64,000 bases of DNA from Thioalkalivibrio thiocyanoxidans ARh2 (GTDB taxonomy: Bacteria > Pseudomonadota > Gammaproteobacteria > Ectothiorhodospirales > Ectothiorhodospiraceae), in NCBI RefSeq assembly GCF_000385215.1, contig NZ_ARQK01000048.1, positions 1 to 64,000 on the forward strand, read 5' to 3'. The position numbers and the translations under genes were made by a program. Of the stretch, positions 9,360 to 31,831 are shown piece after piece. The notes under the pieces are model-generated. The model saw only the letters and a program-made list of their open reading frames with translations, did not search any database and was not told the origin of the DNA. Numbering within the stretch: the first letter of the stretch is position 1; every line of letters begins with the position of its first letter.

Positions 9360-9749
9360 ATGACGGATTCAGCATACTCAGAGGTATCGGCCCATGACCG
9401 AAGCGCCCTGGCGCGAATGGTGATGCAGGCGTTTGATCACTGGGGTCTCGAAACGGACGAAGCCCTCGCGATGCTGGGCCATGCGCCGGACGACTTGGAC
9501 GCGCTTTCGCACTACCGCGGAGGAGAGCCACTGCCGGATGAGCGCGATGCTCTGGATCGTGCGGGCCACATCCTGGGGATCCACAAGGACCTGCGCCTGT
9601 TGTTTCCGCATGAGCGGGATAAGGCCTATCGCTGGATGAAGACGCACAACCGTGCGTTCGGTGGCTGCCCCCCGGTCGAAGTCGTCAGCCGTGAGGGATT
9701 GCAGGGACTGTTGCGCGTCAGGGGTTATCTGGATCGGGCCGTCGCGTAG
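9360..9749 (+). CDS. ParS/MbcA-like DUF2384 protein with N-terminal domain
   Basis: This 129-residue product has an N-terminal helical, Xre-like region (HDRSALARMVMQAFDHWGL, then DEALAMLGHAPDDLDAL) and a C-terminal DUF2384 module (DRAGHILGIHKDLRLLF, WMKTHNRAFGGCPPVEVV, then the usual -RGYLDRAV end). This is the complete antitoxin architecture of ParS. A RES toxin would be expected next, but 9750-10023 contains no open frame resembling one. With the two preceding short copies it forms a three-gene orphan array. Confidence 0.78.
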   Translation: MTDSAYSEVSAHDRSALARMVMQAFDHWGLETDEALAMLGHAPDDLDALSHYRGGEPLPDERDALDRAGHILGIHKDLRLLFPHERDKAYRWMKTHNRAFGGCPPVEVVSREGLQGLLRVRGYLDRAVA

Positions 9750-10023
9750 CAGCTGTTCGGGAATCGCGCCCGTTGCTCATCTGCGGCCGGTGGGGCCCCG
9801 ATCACCCCAAGGAACTCATTGTGCCGGGAAGGTGAGATCGCTGAAAGGCCTTCGTCCCGGCTTCCACATCCCCATGCCGTTCTATGAGCAGAGCCGCTCC
9901 CTAGTTGGCTGCTGGGCGATGGGGCGCGGGCCTATGGATCGCTACTAAGGCGACCCGCACAAAAGTGGTCACGCATAAACCCCATTCGGACGCCTACGGT
10001 GCTCTGGGGAGCGAAATTGCAGA

Positions 10024-13328: not shown

Positions 13329-14618
13329 CTAGCCCCAGATGTCCTGAGTGATGCCTTGGTACCAAGCCCGGGTGTAGTCGGCCTCGCTGGCGCGGAATTC
13401 GGGGCTGGCTCCGGAGGGACTAACACCCCCACCCTCAGCCGTTTGAGTCCCGTCAATGAATCGATAGACGTTTGCTACGCTGATACCGTGTTCTGGGGTG
13501 ACCAGGCTGTAGCAAGTGTTGGCCGAGGAAGGATTGAGCGGCTCCTGGTCCATCAATTCGCGCACAATCGCCGCGGCGACGATCTTGCCTTGGTTGTTGG
13601 CCGAGTGGCCGGACTTCGGCATCGCGCCCGCCACGCTGGCATCCCCCAGCACATAAATGTTGTCGTCCATCTCCGACTTGAAGGTCTGCTGGTTGACCGG
13701 GACCCAGCCTTGGTCGTTGGTGAGGCCGACATCGTGGGCGATCTGGGCGGCCTGTTGGCGAGGAATGAAGTTCATCACATCGGCCTTGACGCGTTCGAAG
13801 CCACTGTCAGCCCGTGCAGTTTTCTCGGCTACGTCTACCGCTTCGACATGGCCACCGTCCGAAGCAGCTCGCCACTCGATCATGTCGCCGTAGTGCTGTG
13901 CCCAGCCTTCCTCAAAAAGGCCCTGCTTGGAGAAGTTGTCCTTGGCATCAAGCACGATGATCTTGGAGCGTGGCTTTTGCTCCTTGAAATAGTGCGCGAT
14001 GAGCGAGACACGCTCATACGGTCCCGGCGGACAGCGGAACGGATTCGGTGGGGCGACCATCACAAAGACGCCACCGTTCGGCATGGCTTCCAGCTGATCT
14101 CGCAGAAGACGAGTCTGGTCGCCCGCTTTCCAAGCATGAGGGATTTCGCTGGCGTCGGATTCGCTGATGCCGTCGACAGCGTCATAGCGGAAGTCGATCC
14201 CTGGGGACATGACGAGTTTGTCATAGCTGATGGAGTCGCCTCCTTGCAGGTGGACACGCCGCCTATCGGGATCGACCGTGGTGACGCGGTCGGCGACTAT
14301 GTTGATGTCATGATTGTCGCGCAGGCTGTCATACGTGTGGGCGATGTCGTCCATGGACGCCAGGCCGCTGAGAACCCAGTTGCTGCCGTAGCAGGTGTAG
14401 TACGTCGCGTTGGGTTCGATTAGCGTAACGCGGAGTTGAGGTAAAAACTGCTTCATGTACTTGGCCGCTGTGGCACCACCGGAACCGCCGCCAACGACCA
14501 CGATGTGTGCCCCGTTGCTGCCGTGCGAGTTGTCAGCGGCAAAACTTGTGCCTGCGAAGGTCGCAGCCCCCGTAGCTCCGGCGGCTTTGAGGAAACGACG
14601 TCGAGTCAAATGATTCAT
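13329..14618 (-). CDS. fccB: Flavocytochrome c, flavoprotein subunit (FccB type)
   Basis: The Tat signal RRRFLKAAG (from Arg6) directs a folded flavoprotein to the periplasm. The FAD-binding motif VVVGGGSGGATAAKY is at about 40-54. Cys76 (YYTCYGSN) is the expected site of the covalent 8-alpha-cysteinyl FAD. Cys196 (FRCPPGPYER) and Cys369 (NTCYS) correspond to the redox disulfide of flavocytochrome c sulfide dehydrogenase. All catalytic features are present, so it could oxidise sulfide, for example sulfur released from thiocyanate, and pass electrons to FccA. It follows fccA by 12 bases. From memory, a flavocytochrome of this kind has been described together with CopC in T. paradoxus. Confidence 0.92.
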   Translation of the reverse strand: MNHLTRRRFLKAAGATGAATFAGTSFAADNSHGSNGAHIVVVGGGSGGATAAKYMKQFLPQLRVTLIEPNATYYTCYGSNWVLSGLASMDDIAHTYDSLRDNHDINIVADRVTTVDPDRRRVHLQGGDSISYDKLVMSPGIDFRYDAVDGISESDASEIPHAWKAGDQTRLLRDQLEAMPNGGVFVMVAPPNPFRCPPGPYERVSLIAHYFKEQKPRSKIIVLDAKDNFSKQGLFEEGWAQHYGDMIEWRAASDGGHVEAVDVAEKTARADSGFERVKADVMNFIPRQQAAQIAHDVGLTNDQGWVPVNQQTFKSEMDDNIYVLGDASVAGAMPKSGHSANNQGKIVAAAIVRELMDQEPLNPSSANTCYSLVTPEHGISVANVYRFIDGTQTAEGGGVSPSGASPEFRASEADYTRAWYQGITQDIWG

Positions 14619-14630
14619 GGTGTTCTCCTT

Positions 14631-14945
14631 TTACTGGTTTCCGAAGTACGCCGCCATAGCGTCAATTTCTTCGTCGCTGTAGCCCTCTGCGTGACGGTTC
14701 ATGACTGTCGCCTCACGTTGCCCGTCACGGAACGCGCGCATCTGACTTGCAATGATGTCTTCCCCTAACATGGCCAGATTGGGTATGCCTTTGTTAGCTC
14801 CGGCCGCGTTGTGGCATGCCTGGCATGAGGCAGCCATGAGTTGACCGCGCGTAATTTCGTCATTGAGGTCGGCGGACACTGTGGGTGCCGCGCTGAGCGC
14901 GACAAGCGAGGCAACTAGCCCCATGACCTGCGTACGTATCTTCAT
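14631..14945 (-). CDS. fccA: Flavocytochrome c, monoheme cytochrome subunit (FccA type)
   Basis: This 104-residue protein has a Sec signal peptide (cleavage near PTVSA-D, residue 25), a single heme c site Cys41-Gln-Ala-Cys44-His45 and a candidate axial Met82. Its size matches the monoheme FccA of Allochromatium-like flavocytochromes; diheme forms are about twice as long. An AAGGAGG site precedes the ATG. It starts the operon fccA-fccB-TonB receptor-BNR lipoprotein. A hairpin with terminator character lies about 200 bases upstream on the same strand. Confidence 0.9.
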   Translation of the reverse strand: MKIRTQVMGLVASLVALSAAPTVSADLNDEITRGQLMAASCQACHNAAGANKGIPNLAMLGEDIIASQMRAFRDGQREATVMNRHAEGYSDEEIDAMAAYFGNQ

Positions 14946-15056
14946 TACTAGCCTCCTTCGGATTGTAAATCCGGTTCATGTGTCGGCGCTGGATGACGGA
15001 GTCGCCAATCCAAAGAATCCGGGTTTATTGGCTGTGTTTTTTCATTGTTTAATAGT

Positions 15057-15128
15057 TCATTCTCTTGTTGATAAATAGATTTCGTGGTCTATAGAGATCG
15101 ATGGACGATCTGAACAAAAAATCCACAT
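15057..15128 (-). CDS. Possible 23-aa leader peptide of the fcc operon
   Basis: ATG 15128 has AAGGAG seven bases upstream, a very good initiation signal, and the frame runs 23 codons to TGA. It sits in the presumed fccA leader, just downstream of the 15148-15172 terminator-like hairpin on the same strand. The peptide (MWIFCSDRPSISIDHEIYL and four more residues) matches nothing I know. It may be a regulatory leader peptide or fortuitous. Confidence 0.3.
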   Translation of the reverse strand: MWIFCSDRPSISIDHEIYLSTRE

Positions 15129-15147
15129 TAGTTTCTCCTTAAAAAGA

Positions 15148-15172
15148 GCTTGCCCTGGGGCTCAGGGCAAGC
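15148..15172 (-). terminator. Perfect 9-bp stem-loop with T-run on the minus strand
   Basis: GCTTGCCCT and AGGGCAAGC pair perfectly around a 7-base loop. Read on the minus strand the stem is followed by TCTTTTTAAGG, a good intrinsic terminator. No gene ends here on that strand, because tatA ends more than 1 kb away, so it may act as an attenuator in the fccA leader. Read on the plus strand the stem directly precedes AGAGGAG and a 17-codon frame. Confidence 0.6.
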
Positions 15173-15188
15173 AAAGAGGAGAACTACA

Positions 15189-15242
15189 ATGTCAACAACA
15201 CCTTCGGTGCTGGGCGGATTCGGGTCTGCCGTGGGGTTCTAG
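15189..15242 (+). CDS. Possible 17-aa micro-ORF
   Basis: ATG 15189 follows AGAGGAGA with a six-base spacer, which is close to ideal. The frame reads MSTTPSVLGGFGSAVGF then stop. It starts 17 bases after the stem-loop. A similar arrangement occurs 200 bases further on (ATG 15403 after AGGAGGT, 13 codons, just past inverted repeats TGTAGGG/CCCTACA at 15319-15325 and 15383-15389). No family is recognised. Translation is unproven. Confidence 0.3.
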   Translation: MSTTPSVLGGFGSAVGF

Positions 15243-16243
15243 TTAAGCAGGTTGCGTTACCGGCGCACCCTTAAGGTGACAAGACGTTAGAACTATCCGC
15301 ATAGGTTTTCCTTGGTGTTGTAGGGTGACCCGCCAAGAGCCCGTGCGTGGAGGAGGGGGTTTCCCGACGTCTAAGCGAGCCGCCCTACAGGAGGTAGATG
15401 CAATGAGCGTGCCAGCCTCCGCCCTTTGTTGGTCACCTGCTTGATGAGGTTAGGGAGGCGTCGTGAACGGTGGAGGTGTAGACGTGGTACGTCGGGGGTG
15501 CGTGACTGTGGGTGCTGGAGGCAGTGCCTCATAGACCTACCCGGAACACAGCTTTCGGGGGTGTCGAGCGTCCTCGAAGCTAGTCCGCGACTTGAGACGC
15601 AGCCCCCTCGGGCGGACATTTCGAGAATCGCGTTTTGGCTCATTGCGTAGCGCCCCATGTAGGGTGCTCGATTCTGTGCCTACTATTCCATCGAATGGCG
15701 CGCCCATCACGATGCGATCAGTACTTATGACGTGTCGGTACGCGGACGATCTCGAAGGTAGAAGGTGCGCCGAATTTTGTATGTGGGTTTGGGGGGCAAA
15801 CGCGGCATACGCGTTCCATCGTTGGTACTGAGTGTTCCAGGGTGAAACATATGGAACGATCAGAATGGGGGCGCAATGGTGGCGACCATGCCAGGATCCA
15901 GCCGGCCCATCTGTGGAATGCGAGAGCGCGGGATTGGGAGAGTATGGCTGGGCAAGAGGGGCAGAGGCCCGGGCGAGGCATACTGTTGCCCGTGGCGCGA
16001 GAGGATGATTCGGCTGCGTCAACCCTCAACGGGTGCCGGCTACGGCTGGGGCTACTGAGAACTCGTATGCGAACCTCCAGCCAGTCAGCACTGGCACTGT
16101 GGAGGCTGTGACAACGCAATGCATTGTGAAGGCCAGGTTACAATGGCGGTTATCGTCGTCACAGCGCCCGCTGGCCACTTTTGGTATTCCCCCTCATAAG
16201 CACGTTTTGAACGCACGTGGTCGGTGTGATGAAGGGTCGGCGC

Positions 16244-17903: not shown

Positions 17904-18386
17904 TTACTTGCTCGCCTTCGCATCACCTACATTCACGAAGGTGTGAAATCCAGTGGTCGTGTGTCCGTCCGAGGAAAGTACTTTCCAAATGACAGCATAG
18001 GCCCCGGCGGGCAGCGGTGCGCGGGTACTCAGGCTAACTTCCGCGGCCTGCGACGATAGATCGCTCTCAACTGATACCTCGTCGTGAACCGTATCGTCGG
18101 GGTTCGCGTTCAGCTCCGAAGCCAGGGTGTTGAGTTGGGCCAAGTTCCGCAGGCCCTCCTCGGGTAGGTTCAGCCTAAATAACCGGAATGTGCTGAAGCG
18201 GCTCACGACTGGCTCGCTAAAGACGAGGCGCACCTCCTGGATCGCACCGTTGCCGACGATGGCTTCGGGGGGGATAGCCGCACGCAGGTTGGCATGTGCG
18301 TCGGCCGCCCCAGGAGCGCCTAGTAATCCAACGGTGGCGAGCATCACCACTGCCAGACGCGACAACTTTAGTCTCACTGCGTACAT
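17904..18386 (-). CDS. copC: CopC periplasmic copper-binding protein
   Basis: A signal peptide ends at GAADA-HANL, which would leave His at the mature N-terminus, a copper ligand in CopC proteins. The beta-barrel shows VRLVFSEPV and the C-terminal SSDGHTTTGFHTFVNVG block, with two more candidate His ligands. The length of 160 residues is slightly above the usual 120-130 owing to an acidic insertion around 85-105. AGTGGAGGTGAG precedes the ATG. It is first in copC-copD(-tatA), divergent from the dehydrogenase gene and preceded by a sigma-54-type promoter. Probable role: periplasmic copper buffer or donor. Confidence 0.92.
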   Translation of the reverse strand: MYAVRLKLSRLAVVMLATVGLLGAPGAADAHANLRAAIPPEAIVGNGAIQEVRLVFSEPVVSRFSTFRLFRLNLPEEGLRNLAQLNTLASELNANPDDTVHDEVSVESDLSSQAAEVSLSTRAPLPAGAYAVIWKVLSSDGHTTTGFHTFVNVGDAKASK

Positions 18387-18484
18387 CTCTCACCTCCACT
18401 GGCTGTAGATCGAATTGGCGTGCTGGGCTGCGGCTGCCGATATCAGGGTGCCGAGCCCCGACGCCGCGGGTAGGTGGTATGCAT

Positions 18485-18500
18485 GCGAAAAGCGTGCCTA
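18485..18500 (-). promoter_or_regulatory. Sigma-54-type promoter for copC-copD
   Basis: On the minus strand this reads AGGCACGCTTTTCGCA, with GG and GC separated by exactly ten bases, against the RpoN consensus TGGCACG-N4-TTGCW. Transcription would start near 18473, about 87 bases before copC. Confidence 0.7.
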
Positions 18501-18540
18501 ACGGACGTACCGGCTTGTTGCAGGAGACCGGCGCTCGCAT

Positions 18541-18590
18541 TTGTTCCGATTTCGTTCCGGCAGGCGGACCGCTGGCCCGAAATGGAACAA
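18541..18590. promoter_or_regulatory. Inverted repeat between divergent promoters, candidate activator site
   Basis: TTGTTCCGATTTCG (18541-18554) is repeated inverted as CGAAATGGAACAA (18578-18590), with one base missing in the second arm. A further TGTTTC at 18593-18598 forms a local dyad with GGAACA. The pair lies about 90-130 bases from both predicted start sites, the distance usual for enhancer sites of NtrC-type activators. The likely binder is the activator encoded at 28673-30073. Confidence 0.6.
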
Positions 18591-18664
18591 GCTGTTTCAG
18601 GCCGGAACGTGGCGATAGAGATGTGCTCGGAAGGAAACCACCGAACGACGCGATGTAGACCGAT

Positions 18665-18680
18665 TGGCATGAATTTCGCT
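18665..18680 (+). promoter_or_regulatory. Sigma-54-type promoter for thiocyanate dehydrogenase
   Basis: TGGCATGAATTTCGCT matches the RpoN consensus TGGCACG-N4-TTGCW with two substitutions and exact GG-N10-GC spacing. The predicted start is near 18690, leaving a leader of about 100 bases before ATG 18789. Confidence 0.75.
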
Positions 18681-18788
18681 GGGCCTAGGGCACCGCAACG
18701 AACGCGGTCTGTTGGTCGCCGGTTGAACGGCATTAGAAACGGCCACCAGTGCTAATCGGTAGTACATCACTCATTTGGAGGAGTCATC

Positions 18789-20435
18789 ATGAGCAATTCC
18801 GACCATACTGACGGCAAGGGTCCGTCTGATCCGAATATCGCCTCGAAGACCACTGAAGGTCACGTCGAAGCAACCGGCCCATCCGAGTCCCGCCGCAAGT
18901 TCCTGAAGTCTGTCGGGATCGGGACCGGTGCCGCGTTCGCGGCCACGGCTGCCGCCCCGTTCCTGCCCGAAAGTGTCCGCGGAATGGTCACGCAGGACGC
19001 TCAGGCTCAAATGTTCGGTCGTAGCGGGAGCAAGTACATCAAGCTTCAGGACTTCTACGACCAGCTCGGCGAATACGTACTGCTGGCACCGGGCAAGTTC
19101 TCCGGCACCGTCGCTGCGACCGACCTCAGCACCGGGTGGACGATGGCGTGGTTGGCTGGATGGAACTACGGCGACACCTGCCCAATCATGCACCACATGG
19201 CCGCCTTCCCGTCCCCGGACCCCTACAAGGAGTTCGAGTTCGTTGTGAACACACAGGGCGGGAAGAACCTGTTCATCTATGGTGTGCCCGTGACAGTGGA
19301 AGAGCCGGGCGAGGGCATGAAGATCTACCGGATGCAGTACGACGGTACGCGCATCAACCTCCAGCGGGATGCCGCTGAGGTCAGTGGTCTGGGGTTGGGT
19401 GTACACGTGACCGTTAACCCCGAGGCGGATGGTTATGCGGTGGGCGACGGCCAGAAGGACATCTGTGCCGAATTCGACCGTGAAACCGACAAGGTGCGGT
19501 ATGCCTGGTACTTCGACTGGGATCCCAACGTCAAGGAACTGGAACGCGCTTGGCTCGATGGTGGCGTAATGACGATCAAGCGCCTGAAGCCGACTTTGGC
19601 TGACGGCCGCTATGACCTGCAGGGATCAAAGGGCAACAAGATTGACTGGGAATTGGTGCCTGGCGGCGAGCTCCAGATCGAAGAGGGCAAGGTCTCTGGT
19701 GATCGCCCGCTCAATGCCTGCGCGAACGATGCCCTGGTATTCGACCCTCGGGGCAAGTGGGCTGTCGCCTCCCTGCGGCTGACGGGTGTCTGTGTCGTGT
19801 TTGACCGCGAGAAGGAGGTGCCGGTGGCGGTTCTTTCCGGACCGAAGGGCACGCCTTCTCAGCTGGAGCTGGTCAAAGTCGACGACGACACCTGGACGGT
19901 GGAAATACCGGAGGTTGTCAGCGCCGGTCACCAGGCGGGCTTCTCGCCCGACGGAAAGAGCTTCCTGTTTATGAACAGCCTGCGCCAGAACAACATCATG
20001 GTGTGGGACAGTTCGGATCATTCCGATCCTAGCCAGTGGGACAAGAAAGCCGTTGTCGAGAGCCCGGACTGGCGTGGCGCTTACCCGAACACGTTCCACA
20101 TGGTGTTCACGCCGGATGCCAAGAAGCTGTACGTCACGATGTGGTGGCCGTCCCCGACCCCGAACGGTATCGCGGTTATCGACGCGGTCAACTGGGAATT
20201 GCTGAAGGAAGTCGACCTCGGCCCCGACATGCATACGTTGGCGATGACGTACGACGGCAAGTTCGTGATCGGTACGCTCTCCGGCTACCAGAACACGGCG
20301 TCTGCGATTGTGGTTATGGAAACTGAGACCGATGAGGTGCTTGGCTTCCTGCCCAGTCCGATGGGCCACCATGACAACGTGATTGTGCCGCGCACGCTAG
20401 AAGACCTGCGCATCAGCCGTTCCACCACGACCTGA
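18789..20435 (+). CDS. tcdh: Thiocyanate dehydrogenase (trinuclear-copper enzyme)
   Basis: This 548-residue protein has a Tat signal (SRRKFLKSVG, Arg35-Arg36) and a seven-bladed propeller related to nitrous-oxide reductase. It lacks the CuA cupredoxin domain and is shorter than NosZ. Residues known for T. paradoxus thiocyanate dehydrogenase occur at the same numbers: copper ligands His135, His206, Asp314, His381, His437, His482 and His528, plus Lys103 and Glu288. It should oxidise thiocyanate to cyanate and sulfur in the periplasm, giving two electrons. GGAGGAG precedes the ATG. Upstream is a sigma-54-type promoter; downstream an ABC-transporter operon follows after a stem-loop. Annotation as NosZ would be wrong. 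Confidence 0.97.
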   Translation: MSNSDHTDGKGPSDPNIASKTTEGHVEATGPSESRRKFLKSVGIGTGAAFAATAAAPFLPESVRGMVTQDAQAQMFGRSGSKYIKLQDFYDQLGEYVLLAPGKFSGTVAATDLSTGWTMAWLAGWNYGDTCPIMHHMAAFPSPDPYKEFEFVVNTQGGKNLFIYGVPVTVEEPGEGMKIYRMQYDGTRINLQRDAAEVSGLGLGVHVTVNPEADGYAVGDGQKDICAEFDRETDKVRYAWYFDWDPNVKELERAWLDGGVMTIKRLKPTLADGRYDLQGSKGNKIDWELVPGGELQIEEGKVSGDRPLNACANDALVFDPRGKWAVASLRLTGVCVVFDREKEVPVAVLSGPKGTPSQLELVKVDDDTWTVEIPEVVSAGHQAGFSPDGKSFLFMNSLRQNNIMVWDSSDHSDPSQWDKKAVVESPDWRGAYPNTFHMVFTPDAKKLYVTMWWPSPTPNGIAVIDAVNWELLKEVDLGPDMHTLAMTYDGKFVIGTLSGYQNTASAIVVMETETDEVLGFLPSPMGHHDNVIVPRTLEDLRISRSTTT

Positions 20436-28600: not shown

Positions 28601-28683
28601 CCGGCAATGGGACACGGGTAGCGTTCTGTCTGCCGCTGCCCCGTTCCCCTGCAATGCCGAAGGAGGTTAGCTATGACGGGTAG
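25627..28683 (+). CDS. Membrane sensor histidine kinase with GAF domains
   Basis: The TTG start follows AGGAGGG at a good distance. The 1018-residue protein has about eight N-terminal membrane helices (40-275) with a conserved-looking HHNAGAHFVLELFYGF segment, reminiscent of MASE-type sensor modules. A coiled coil and probably three GAF-like domains (about 315-430, 440-600, 610-770) follow. The kinase core has phosphoacceptor His804 (SLSHEIRNPLG), an N box (LANLLDNAAAA), G1 (DSGPGIP) and G2 (GVGLGL). The stop overlaps the response-regulator start by 11 bases, so they are a cognate pair. It probably senses thiocyanate, a product or copper through its membrane part; the ligand is not deducible. 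Confidence 0.92.
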   Translation: MNQGQTTFKSGNGLIDKARTPLGGPERGMPAGQLGIASLVVLVPPLAMIMQHLVAPVSADLHHNAGAHFVLELFYGFLSLVVAFILFQEGRRYSNARLAFMAYAFVTMGILALAHAVASPGSVLFVWFHSLSALSGALLLGLSLLVGRIEWFRPASATPLAAVVIGTVLVAFLSIQFAEYLHVMLVNGGFSQAAVAMNLAAGVLFVLVGGAFLAEFLRSRETLFLVFSVVSLLLAQSEFMFPYSMLWDVNWWIWHGVRVGVVAVLIVMLAIEFVKGFRQLEIYHQRLLGAMQSIEDSNRRIQNDNQMLAAHAAILQDISQSLDTESVLHSILRAARRLPGVADVEILPVAERGMPGQSLGHDAQRAEPNFTDQSRRLVQPLVGRERVLGSIQVDYDSDYTPTEEDSVRLQVFANQAAVAMERARLHEELAKRHRHLKGMYETLRAVTSSIDLDRILDSLLQHESEVLEARYALAYLLSEDESRATVVAEYARDERPRFRGATCSVTSHPMLMTCVRERRSFHLALQEDGPEHFPETAIQAAVDEGEINEALYIPLIADGQVIGCIGLLLDAGSPLGRDELALARALAGQAGFAIHHGRLFRESQCSAEFRTGLGETMMSMIAARDLDAVVDVVCCGAVKLLNCSPALVCLIDDDTECLHGCVARHEGPNDLRRFERALRVGRRAHEAVAGSGAPVCLTPGSLEDLGLDGIEEELDNNAPILIAPFNVRGHMLGYMMLPVSMNGGERDFVERTMLFAQQAGLAIETAVLIKDLKQAFVALDNAQQSLVESERLASLGEMAASLSHEIRNPLGTVTSAVGLLQSEQLDGSERRELLELMESEVNRLNHLVSDTLDFARPARAREQCFELGPLIDQIVRMASVRFPDLVVEKELPEDLPDLTGEAAEIQQVLANLLDNAAAATQGKGAVLLRVRLEAEQVWFEILDSGPGIPHEMRNRVFEPFETTKPDGVGLGLVIVHRIVSNWGGTVDLESEPGNGTRVAFCLPLPRSPAMPKEVSYDG

Positions 28684-30073
28684 CGTGCTGATCGTGGACG
28701 ATGAGCGGGGCGTTCGCCGGACGCTGGAGTTCTTGCTCTCCAAAGAGGGCTTTAGGGTGAGCGTCGCGGAGAGTGGGGAGCAGGCAATGGATCGATTCGA
28801 GGAGCGCCCCGTCGACTTGGTGCTTACTGATCTGCGCATGGATGGCATGTCCGGGTTGGACGTGGTGCGAGAGGTTAAACGGCGATCTCCAGGGGCGGAG
28901 GTTCTCGTGATGACTGCGTTCGGCAGTATCGACACGGCGGTCGAGGCGATGAAACTTGGTGCCACGGACTACATCACCAAGCCGGCGAGGAACGAAGAGA
29001 TCCTTTGGAAGGTGCGCAAAATACTCGAGGGCCGATCGCTTAGCGAGGCGCATGAACCGGGCAACGAGGAGACCTGTAATTCTGGGCTGGGCGCGCTGGT
29101 GGCAGAGAGCCCCGCGATGTGTGAGGTACTGGAACGGATTCGAAAGGTGGCGCCTACAAACCTGACGGTTTTGATTACTGGGGAGACGGGAACCGGTAAG
29201 AGTTGCATTGCGCGGGCCATCCACCATCACAGCCAGCTATCCGCAGGGCCGTTCGTGTCCGTCAACTGTGCGGCCTTGCCTGAGCCGCTGCTGGAAAGCG
29301 AGCTGTTCGGGCATGCGAAAGGCGCGTTCACCGGAGCAACTCAGGCGCGAAGGGGGCTGTTCGAAGAGGCTCATAACGGCACGCTGTTTCTTGATGAAAT
29401 CGGAACGTTGCCGGCAAATATGCAGGCAAAGCTTCTCGGTGCATTGCAGGATCGTGAGATTCGCCGTGTGGGCAGCAACACTCCTCAGGCGGTGGATGTG
29501 CGCGTGATTGCGGCGACGAACGCGGATCTCGAAGAAGAGGTCGCACGTGACGTGTTCCGGGAAGATCTGTTTTACCGGCTGAATGTCGCCCGGCTACAGG
29601 TACCGCCCTTGCGTGAACGAAGGGAGGATATTCCTGTGCTGGCACGAGGCATCCTGGCCCGTCTTGCCGGGGATGGTTCACACGGTGTTGCGGTAACCGA
29701 CGAGGCTATGTCGGTGCTGTGCAATGCGGAGTATCCAGGTAATGTGCGCGAATTGGAAAACGCCTTGGAGTGGGCAGCAGCGGTCTGTCGGGGGCACCTA
29801 ATTGCGGTCGCTGATCTTCCCGAGGCGCTCCAACAGCCACAACGGTCTGTTCGCACACCGTTAGAGCAGGGTGAGGAAACAGCAGTGGTTCGCGAGAAGG
29901 CGGTGCCGACGGATGGCAGTCTCGCAGGGCATGAGCGTCAGATTATTGAGGAAAGCATCGAGCGCTGCCGCTGGAATCTCACCGCTGCGGCCAAGTCCCT
30001 CGGAATCGGCCGCACCACGCTCTGGCGCAAGATGCGCCAGTACAATATTGGGCGTGACCCAGCTTCACGCTGA
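28673..30073 (+). CDS. NtrC-family sigma-54-dependent response regulator
   Basis: AGGAGG precedes ATG 28673. This 466-residue activator has a receiver domain with Asp9/Asp10, phosphoacceptor Asp53 (LTD) and Lys103, an AAA+ domain with Walker A GETGTGKS (170-177), the sigma-54 contact motif GAFTGA (217-222) and Walker B FLDEIG. A Fis-type helix-turn-helix closes it (NLTAAAKSLGIGRTTLWRKM). All motifs for RpoN activation are intact. It should be phosphorylated by the adjacent kinase. The likely targets are the two GG-N10-GC promoters and the inverted repeat between copC and the dehydrogenase gene. Confidence 0.95.
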   Translation: MTGSVLIVDDERGVRRTLEFLLSKEGFRVSVAESGEQAMDRFEERPVDLVLTDLRMDGMSGLDVVREVKRRSPGAEVLVMTAFGSIDTAVEAMKLGATDYITKPARNEEILWKVRKILEGRSLSEAHEPGNEETCNSGLGALVAESPAMCEVLERIRKVAPTNLTVLITGETGTGKSCIARAIHHHSQLSAGPFVSVNCAALPEPLLESELFGHAKGAFTGATQARRGLFEEAHNGTLFLDEIGTLPANMQAKLLGALQDREIRRVGSNTPQAVDVRVIAATNADLEEEVARDVFREDLFYRLNVARLQVPPLRERREDIPVLARGILARLAGDGSHGVAVTDEAMSVLCNAEYPGNVRELENALEWAAAVCRGHLIAVADLPEALQQPQRSVRTPLEQGEETAVVREKAVPTDGSLAGHERQIIEESIERCRWNLTAAAKSLGIGRTTLWRKMRQYNIGRDPASR

Positions 30074-30118: not shown

Positions 30119-30616
30119 CTAGTGCGGGCCGCCATGCGGAGCCGAGTCTTCGTTGTGACGGTTTGGATGACCGCCCGAGCCGGCGAGGGAAGCGTTGCGA
30201 GCCTCGTCCTTCAAGAAGTTCACCAAGTGCCAGATGTCCTGCTCGTCTAAGACCTCTGAGAAGGCAGGCATTGGACCACGTCCATTCCGGATGCGGTATG
30301 CGAAGTCACCGTCGGTATGGTGCGGCGCGTGTTCGATCAGATTCGCGGGGGGAGGATCAAGTTCTGTGCCGTCGGGCCCATCGCCGAGGAGTTTTGCGCC
30401 GTGGCAACGCAAGCAGTGTTCCGTGTACAGCGACTGACCGCGAACGATCGAATGTTCGTTGGGTGGAATCGGGTTTTCACGCTGGATTTCCGACTCCGGG
30501 ACCTCCCATCCACTGCCATGACCGTGGGGCGGATGAGCGATTGCGGATCCAGCCATGAGGAGCGCGGCGGAGAGGGTGGTGGCGGTGACACACGACTTCA
30601 ATTGGTTTCGAATCAT
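30119..30616 (-). CDS. Periplasmic monoheme cytochrome c
   Basis: This 165-residue protein has a Sec signal (cleavage about SAIA-HPPHGHG), one heme c site Cys68-Leu-Arg-Cys71-His72 and axial Met116 (GPMPAF). The mature N-terminus (HPPHGHGSG) and C-terminus (GGHPNRHNEDSAPHGGPH) are rich in His, a possible copper-binding feature unusual for simple class I cytochromes. TAGGAGGA precedes the ATG. It converges with the sigma-54 activator gene. Probable role: accepting electrons from thiocyanate dehydrogenase or flavocytochrome c. Confidence 0.88.
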   Translation of the reverse strand: MIRNQLKSCVTATTLSAALLMAGSAIAHPPHGHGSGWEVPESEIQRENPIPPNEHSIVRGQSLYTEHCLRCHGAKLLGDGPDGTELDPPPANLIEHAPHHTDGDFAYRIRNGRGPMPAFSEVLDEQDIWHLVNFLKDEARNASLAGSGGHPNRHNEDSAPHGGPH

Positions 30617-31831
30617 CGTAATCCTCCTAAGGCGTTCTCGCGTGCCCGCAACAAAGCGAGTGCAGGCAACTCAAGGGACGCCAGGTGCAGAATGAGACTG
30701 GAGGTCACGTTCACCATCTGGCTATCCCGATAGAGCCAAAGCAAGAGCGGGGCCAAGTCATTGGAGTGGCGTTACAAATACCGTCAAACGGCTCTAAAGC
30801 AATTGATAGCTGCCTGCCTGCGGATGCAGTGTGCATGGCATCCACGTTTCACGCCGGTTGGATTTGGAACGGGATGGTTCAGTTCGAAACGACGGCTGCC
30901 AGAACGTACCGGGGGCAGGCGAGTGTTCAACCTTATAGGTCTGGCAGCGCAGACCGCTCCTCCCTGTTCGGTCAACGCAGATGCAGACGCCGCGAATCCC
31001 GATCGGGGGCGAGTGGCCGACCAAGGACGGGCACGCGGCAGGTCATGCTGATCTAGGTGTGCAAACGGCATAGCCATGGTGTGGGGTTTTTGATATGGCA
31101 GCCTCCGCCAGATTACGTATCTGGACCGGGTCGTATGCGGCCGATGAGCAGGCACAGGTGGTGACCTTCTTGTTTCGCGGACCTTGGACTGGTTGGATGT
31201 AATGGCCTGTTAATCGACTCGGCGCCTGCGCATCGCCCGCGAACCTTCTTGGGCCGGTACGCGTAACACATGCCTTGCAAGTCCTTTTCTCATTCTGTCC
31301 TCGAAGACGCCATTTGCCCGACGTGAACCGGACGCGTTCATGCGTCCGGCATGATGGCCATTTCGGATCTGCGGAAGCCGACGCCTCCGTCGGAGTGATC
31401 ATGTTGTGTGCGAGCTAGGCTATGTCGACTTGGAAATGCAAGGAACTTCCGGAAGATGACCGTGACAGACACAGGTCTGTGCGCGTCCTCGTTCGCGGGA
31501 AGGGTTGTTCGATCTGTCATGGATCCTGATCCGTTGTAGGAAGGAGGCGCCGGAGCATCCGGGCAGGATGGGTTGGCAAAGGGTCGTGGGGTGAACCTTC
31601 CATTCTTGGATAGTGGCGGCGAGGCACGGGCCGATTCCGTAGAGTCGGATGGCAACGGTCTTCGCGCCGCAACTGCCAGATTGCCGTCGCCGCTGGGAAG
31701 AGGCCTTGCGGGCAAGCGGGCTGCGGAACCGGTGGAGGCCCGGTTAACGGGGCGCCGCTACGACATGCCGTACATCCGAGTCCCCGATTAGGGGGCTGTA
31801 CGGATGGCTCAAGGGTAGGTGCTGCGCTACC
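30617..31831. other. 1.2 kb intergenic region
   Basis: No convincing gene on either strand. A small hairpin (CCAGAT-TACGT-ATCTGG) lies at 31108-31124, and a longer bulged hairpin at 31768-31803 just before the next gene. A GG-N11-GC element upstream of the cytochrome gene has the wrong spacing for a sigma-54 promoter. Confidence 0.5.
31768..31803 (+). promoter_or_regulatory. Bulged stem-loop in the leader of the following gene
   Basis: CCGTACA (31768-31774) pairs with TGTACGG (31797-31803). Inside, GTCCCC (31780-31785) pairs with GGGGGC (31791-31796) around loop GATTA, leaving a TCCGA bulge on one side. It ends 28 bases before the GTG start at 31832 and could control translation. No known riboswitch class is recognised. 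Confidence 0.4.

Follow-up and report, generated by a model that had tools for sequence, protein, structure and literature searches.

The 402-bp gap between copC and the thiocyanate dehydrogenase (TcDH) gene of Thioalkalivibrio thiocyanoxidans ARh2 is very probably a two-way RpoN switch, worked by the cluster's own sigma-54 activator (EBP) through a dyad at 18593-18609, with fccAB and a cytochrome gene probably included. This reading is drawn from sequence, and its computed support consists of the promoter elements, their conservation, the association with the EBP gene, the presence of rpoN, and an identical EBP recognition helix. The first-pass annotation of this DNA had proposed that thiocyanate oxidation and its copper supply are switched together by RpoN, a proposal supported here by the presence of rpoN and the conservation of the elements.

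Part of this picture is already in print. The Thioalkalivibrio TcDH cluster described in PMC5744179 and PMC5328954 has the same gene order and EBP/kinase pair; copCD, TcDH, fccAB, and the two-component genes are co-induced on thiocyanate (Berben et al. 2017, PMC5744179), and the EBP is presumed there to regulate the TcDH operon. The published co-induction of copCD and TcDH is consistent with one activator acting on both promoters. These papers differ from the present analysis in giving, as far as their main texts go, no operator and no comparison of regulatory DNA; the word "promoter" has 0 occurrences in either main text. Our search of open-access PubMed Central, with most subscription papers outside its scope, found no description of control DNA (promoters, operator) for thiocyanate oxidation. 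The first-pass view that the regulatory logic was undescribed thus stands for the promoters and operator, and falls for co-induction and presumed EBP control (PMC5744179).

Cluster layout and the divergent elements

The window is a stretch of 64,000 nucleotides (contig NZ_ARQK01000048.1, positions 1 to 64,000). The minus strand encodes, in order, a BNR protein, a TonB receptor, fccB, fccA, tatA, copD, and copC; the plus strand continues with TcDH, four ABC subunits, two unknown genes, a sensor kinase, and the EBP, followed by a cytochrome c gene on the minus strand. The genes needed here are:

13329-14618, minus strand: fccB, flavocytochrome c flavoprotein (domain search)
14631-14945, minus strand: fccA, cytochrome subunit (named via gene order in PMC5744179)
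16244-16504, minus strand: tatA-like ORF (named via gene order in PMC5744179)
16731-17900, minus strand: copD (domain search)
17904-18386, minus strand: copC (domain search)
18789-20435, plus strand: TcDH gene (named via gene order and context in PMC5744179)
25627-28683, plus strand: sensor histidine kinase with GAF domain (start codon from the mechanical ORF list)
28673-30073, plus strand: EBP with receiver, AAA+ (GAFTGA), and HTH_8; recognition helix LGIGRTTLWRKM
30119-30616, minus strand: cytochrome c with CLRCH motif, CytC552-like (domain search and motif)

The TcDH protein itself had no Pfam match, and a MASE3 match in the kinase was weak and below the cut-off. Both the GAFTGA activator and the sensor kinase that the first-pass annotation assigned to the cluster were found, the former with the receiver, sigma-54-interacting AAA+ domain, and Fis-type HTH of an NtrC-type response regulator. 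Absence of rpoN, an outcome that the annotation had set against its own reading, did not occur: the genome has a single rpoN match, close to the end of the contig that precedes the window's in numbering, and rpoN was found in all 12 related genomes tested. This position of rpoN and the gene order of the cluster agree with the ARh 2 locus tags in PMC5744179. The cytochrome c shares the C(V/L)RCH motif described for CytC552, which accepts electrons from TcDH in vitro (PMC9456337).

The copC-TcDH gap contains the following features:

18484-18499, minus strand: sigma-54 (-24/-12) element of copC-copD-tatA, AGGCACGCTTTTCGCA
18541-18554, plus strand: left arm of an inverted repeat, TTGTTCCGATTTCG, 7/14 positions invariant
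18578-18590, plus strand: right arm of the repeat, CGAAATGGAACAA, 10/13 invariant, overlapping the operator block
18584-18598, plus strand: overlapping dyad GGAACA-N3-TGTTTC, left part of block 18584-18609
18593-18609, plus strand: candidate operator (UAS) dyad TGTTTCAGGCCGGAACG, TGTTTC-N5-GGAACG, 17 bp
18665-18680, plus strand: sigma-54 element of the TcDH operon, TGGCATGAATTTCGCT

The full sigma-54 consensus is TGGCACG-N4-TTGCW. As first annotated, the two elements have exact GG-N10-GC cores and share TTTCGC; each has two mismatches to the full consensus, and the -12 part of the TcDH element is off-consensus (TCGC). Sigma-54 promoters carry GG at -24 and TGC at -12 (PMC3844500). Transcripts would be expected to start at ~18473 on the copC side and ~18691 on the TcDH side (our own arithmetic). 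Matches with up to three mismatches numbered 119 in the window against a shuffle mean of 112, so one site alone proves little and the claim must rest on context and conservation. For the region upstream of TcDH, 16 of 1000 resampled sequences gave an equally good element.

Two other candidates in the gap were tried and rejected. A simple consensus scan for a sigma-70 promoter gave no sigma-70-type site. The TcDH leader (18691-18788) is well conserved (75/98 positions), and a structured leader was rejected because it folds no better than shuffles (z -0.53; 54/200 at least as good).

Among 47 genomes of the order that were searched, TcDH was found in the own genome and two other Thioalkalivibrio (G379 and G380), with 90% TcDH identity and the copC-to-EBP arrangement of the window. 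In the alignment of the gap across the three species, 245 of 402 positions are invariant. The copC element is invariant at 15/16 positions and lies inside a 17-base block, CATGCGAAAAGCGTGCC, that is unbroken in all three. The GG and GC of the TcDH element are invariant, as are 13/16 positions in all, and the congeners have TGGCACGGATCTCGCT; this level is unexceptional for the gap (74 of 386 windows are as good). The best-conserved 26-mer of the gap is 18584-18609, at 23/26 invariant positions, a level that it alone reaches among 376 windows. Loss of the GG-N10-GC elements in homologous clusters, which the first-pass annotation had also named as counting against it, was not seen. Its inverted repeat fared less well: the comparison across clusters that it had called for found the -24/-12 elements conserved and the left arm of the repeat not conserved.

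The candidate operator and further modules in the window

The inverted repeat does exist. The pair TTGTTCCGATTTCG / CGAAATGGAACAA is visible by eye with a one-base gap, and is missing from the output of an ungapped repeat finder. As a whole it was rejected as the operator, since its left arm (7/14) is set against 245/402 for the gap. The likely operator, as judged from the alignment, is instead the block 18584-18609, which overlaps the right arm of the repeat and has the core dyad YGTTTC-N5-GRAACR. Its 17-bp dyad TGTTTC-N5-GGAACG has what we take to be NtrC-like geometry. The dyad lies 72 bp from the TcDH element and 110 bp from the copC element, within the ~70-150 bp often found for upstream sigma-54 activator sites (PMC3844500). 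Two opposed sigma-54 elements with one candidate operator between them are present in the window and in both congeners (loci L080 and L081), and another such pair occurs in the more distant locus L113.

The strict dyad TGTTYC-N5-GGAACR has exactly two matches in the 2.77-Mb genome, 18593-18609 and 15833-15849, both in the cluster; the reversed pattern, searched over the whole genome as a control, has 0. About one chance match is expected at equal base frequencies (our own arithmetic), so the weight rests on the place of the second dyad, upstream of fccA. The further modules of the window are:

15399-15414, minus strand: perfect sigma-54 consensus TGGCACGCTCATTGCA upstream of fccA, 0 mismatches
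15833-15849, minus strand: operator dyad TGTTTCACCCTGGAACA, 435 bp upstream of the fccA element
30740-30755, minus strand: sigma-54 element of the cytochrome gene, TGGCCCCGCTCTTGCT, 2 mismatches
30875-30891, minus strand: operator dyad of the cytochrome gene, CGTTTCGAACTGAACCA, 1 mismatch

The fccA element is one of two exact consensus matches in the whole genome; the distance to its dyad, 435 bp, lies outside the usual 70-150 bp and counts against it, while the 136 bp at the cytochrome gene lies within. Published logFC values on thiocyanate are 7.5 for TcDH, 4.7 for copC, 4.0 for copD, 4.0 for tatA, and 6.9/5.8 for fcc (PMC5744179), and the rise after tatA fits a separate promoter between tatA and fccA. 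From these sites, the switch looks wider than the first-pass annotation stated, taking in fccAB and the cytochrome c552-like gene.

The block around the cytochrome gene's dyad has a conserved counterpart upstream of fccA in both congeners, whose fccA, fccB, and cytochrome genes are consecutive on one strand. This points to an old promoter that stayed with the cytochrome gene when fccAB moved, and the sequences suggest that fccAB then gained another. The 1.3 kb between tatA and fccA (14946-16243), which hold the perfect sigma-54 site and its distant dyad, contain small overlapping ORFs (one of them with no Pfam match) but no evident gene; this stretch may be a scar of the fccAB relocation. In both congeners, a tatA element, CGGCACG[C/G]GAGTTGCA, was considered as a module and rejected, as there is no dyad within 450 bp; it has no counterpart in the tatA gap of the window.

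The main text of the RNA-seq paper (PMC5744179) has no mention of the cytochrome gene that we could find. For the kinase, the EBP, and the unknown genes, its Table 1 and text are out of step by one in locus tags and annotations, so that the cytochrome gene could correspond to a "hypothetical" listed with logFC 1.64.

Linked and unlinked TcDH loci

TcDH relatives are encoded at 59 loci on the genome contigs searched. Four betaproteobacterial loci (L002, L003, L004, and L006) keep the TcDH-ABC-kinase-EBP arrangement, with EBPs 51-54% identical; upstream of TcDH, each shows a single element on the sense strand (TGGCCTGCGGCTTGCA, TGGCCCGCTCCTTGCT, TGGCCTGCGATTTGCT, and TGGCGTGCGGCTTGCA, respectively). 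Together with the three Thioalkalivibrio, these make up the seven loci in which TcDH leads an EBP-linked operon. All seven have a sigma-54 element upstream of TcDH vs 0 of 55 loci without a linked EBP, a count in which short upstream sequence excluded no locus and TcDH starts are approximate; linked and unlinked loci differ in lineage, so these are not 62 independent trials. At the four loci whose upstream elements have two mismatches, 16-29 of 1000 resampled sequences contained such an element.

The beta loci have two dyads 19-20 bp apart, with best mismatches of 1, 1, 2, and 1; 51 of 300 resampled sequences were as good as the two-mismatch dyads of L004. Upstream of TcDH in the 55 unlinked loci, a dyad with up to one mismatch was found in one (L038) and with up to two in eight.

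The copper side of the beta loci is less clear. At up to three mismatches, the stretches scanned gave no convincing divergent sigma-54 element: matches in L002, L004, and L006 lie only inside or beyond adjacent genes and were rejected, and L003 has none. In L002, L004, and L006, the genes beside TcDH read by eye as copper chaperones (PCuAC- and SCO-like).

After being widened to YGTTTC-N5-GRAACR on those seven loci, the operator was applied to five distant TcDH loci from the same class (TcDH 33-36% identical). Four of them (L111, L112, L113, and L115) have a kinase and an EBP (44-50% identical), and all four carry promoter and dyad modules; because the motif was widened after the beta loci were seen, only these four are a true hold-out. 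L114, which has no EBP, has no dyad or element near TcDH. The four loci hold 13 dyad places at up to one mismatch, 11 of them upstream of a sigma-54 element with one or two mismatches. The remaining two, L113 13613 and 13648, precede the TcDH unit, upstream of which the only near-element, TGGCACGGGACTTGAT, has lost the core C (by eye); a two-mismatch element at L113 13599 points away from TcDH. Second modules precede a porin (L112, L113, L115), a CusB/HlyD-like gene (L113), and an ORF without a Pfam match (L111). The CusB/HlyD-like ORF starts inside its element, so the true start must be further on. Between this gene and the porin, L113 shows a further divergent pair, arranged about one dyad.

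These loci bear on how far the copC side of the window belongs to the switch. It is conceivable that the sigma-54 sites are real while the copC side is minor, copCD depending mainly on another promoter and the divergent pair being incidental. The weaker induction of copC than of TcDH (PMC5744179) and the lack of a clear copper-side element in the beta loci would fit. We nevertheless consider this unlikely, since the copC element is better conserved than the TcDH element and L113 repeats the divergent arrangement around one dyad.

We defined a module as a sigma-54 element with up to two mismatches and a dyad with up to one mismatch, within 250 bp. On this definition, 24 modules were counted in 11 EBP-linked loci (220 kb) vs 0 in 56 unlinked loci (903 kb), a comparison in which related loci are not independent, control loci are largely of other lineages and include L052 (27% match to the EBP receiver region only), and the window is represented by 9001-34000 only. 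Modules are present in 10 of the 11 linked loci (L004 has none), and the full module is upstream of the TcDH unit in only nine, L004 and L113 lacking it there. Among the 24, at least one or two modules are likely to be spurious: the one at L002 9587 probably is, being a two-mismatch match inside a copper-chaperone-like gene, and the L113 13599 module, pointing away from TcDH, may be.

Within the linked loci, a dyad lies beside 24 of 40 sigma-54-like elements. None of 1000 scrambled dyads reaches this number (mean 0.47, maximum 17), and other spacers (0-4 and 6-11) give 0-4 elements with a dyad. The own genome matches the dyad with up to one mismatch at 46 places. Three of these belong to the cluster, and none of the other 43 lies within 250 bp of a sigma-54 element. 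In other genomes, exact dyads also occur away from the cluster, as do most congener matches and all matches in the four beta genomes; among those examined outside the cluster, a nearby sigma-54 element accompanies 0/13 in the congeners and 0/6 in the beta genomes. The recognition helix GIGRTTLWRK is present in all 10 readable TcDH-linked EBPs and in none of six other EBPs aligned; the L113 EBP was left out because its frame breaks before the helix. The four distant EBP homologues have GSFTGA, not GAFTGA.

Could the operator instead be the site of another regulator, such as a different EBP or a copper or nitrogen regulator, with the linked EBP acting elsewhere? Tv. thiocyanoxidans has 11 EBPs (PMC5744179), binding of the linked EBP to the operator is a prediction, and G379 and G380 encode, beside the cluster, a second EBP that has a module of its own. 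Presence of the module follows the linked EBP, however, and the recognition helix is identical across readable linked EBPs and different in the six others aligned, the second EBP included. The Thioploca MAG (L005) also argues against another regulator. It has a TcDH 65% identical and rpoN, and no EBP gene was found next to TcDH (the best-scoring EBP is 37% identical, and one partial match reaches 53% over residues 135-377 only) nor any sigma-54 element upstream, so TcDH control must differ there. Altogether, we regard control by another regulator as quite improbable. Chance GG-N10-GC matches combined with general conservation of a promoter gap would account for a window total close to shuffles and for the resampled two-mismatch elements, but the element, dyad, and linked EBP co-occur across three cluster types while control loci have no module, which makes chance scarcely credible.

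The second EBP gene of the congeners is 43% identical over the AAA+ and HTH part, with no receiver seen. It has its own dyad (L080 18510-18615; L081, 18654 region) with a sigma-54 element 90 bp on, which suggests a regulatory cascade in G379 and G380.

In searches for further TcDH loci, 297 genomes of the G412 family gave only three known loci, 27 genomes of the G158 family only one known locus, and plasmids only two Methylocella tundrae records (50%).

Proposed mechanism and related systems

In the mechanism that we favor, the adjacent sensor kinase would phosphorylate the EBP, which would bind TGTTTC-N5-GGAACG at 18593-18609 and probably also the overlapping GGAACA-N3-TGTTTC. Via DNA looping, the bound EBP would activate sigma-54 polymerase on both sides, with predicted sigma-54 starts for the TcDH-ABC-kinase-EBP operon and for copC-copD-tatA. 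The same activator probably drives fccAB and the genes after it, as well as the cytochrome c552-like gene. This would turn on the enzyme, copper handling, an export component, and electron acceptors at the same time.

As a mechanism, divergent sigma-54 promoters governed by a two-component EBP are already known. What appears to be new, on the basis of the DNA compared, is the operator, the promoter set, and their conservation beside differing copper genes. In enterobacteria, ZraSR/ZraP is a metal-linked two-component EBP system whose divergent sigma-54 promoters serve the gene of a periplasmic metal protein and the regulatory genes of the system itself; the EBP, cue, and genes differ, and here an energy-yielding enzyme is paired with copper handling (PMC4987338). 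AioXSR/ArxXSR places a respiratory oxidase, arsenite oxidase, under its own kinase and AAA+ response regulator with a putative RpoN promoter, but has the periplasmic oxyanion-binding sensor AioX, another binding site, and, in the account given there, no copper supply in the switch (PMC5908839). The FhlA hyc/hyp units of Salmonella/E. coli are divergent sigma-54 units of enzyme and maturation genes under one EBP; the FhlA site, CATTTCGTACGAAATG, is a different dyad and its listed signal is formate.

Related systems also include the Thiohalobacter and Guyparkeria TcDH clusters (PMC6504805), which have an EBP and a GAF histidine kinase next to TcDH along with Cus-type copper genes, an architecture that L111, L113, and L115 resemble. 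That paper differs in reading the kinase as a copper-transport protein; in its available text, "promoter" has 0 occurrences and no such operator is described.

We consider it somewhat probable that one EBP and the operator YGTTTC-N5-GRAACR form a fixed thiocyanate-oxidation regulon whose controlled genes are swapped: Thioalkalivibrio has CopCD/TatA, Thiohalobacter/Guyparkeria-like clusters have Cus-type transport together with an outer-membrane porin, and promoter capture would have re-wired cytochrome c552/fccAB when fccAB moved. If so, control DNA, and not particular copper genes, would keep a copper enzyme coupled to its metal supply. If the proposed switch is real, the base of the cyanate pathway of thiocyanate oxidation would gain its control DNA, with four promoters and their operators named in one window and responding genes predictable in other bacteria. 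The operator could also serve as a marker for TcDH accessory genes (cytochrome, fccAB, porin). Thiocyanate is a pollutant, and its microbial removal is of practical interest.

Three further observations were made. In L002, a perfect 38-bp palindrome (9732-9769, by eye) places two dyads head to head upstream of TcDH. Across L007-L060, many Reyranella and Melainabacteria-like records combine a TcDH-like gene with the ABC pair and hyp1 but lack the EBP. In three distant TcDH clusters, an outer-membrane porin with a PF13372 match has a dyad and sigma-54 module (L112 7498-8844, L113 2678-4165, and L115 15858-17252), and is a candidate thiocyanate or copper porin.
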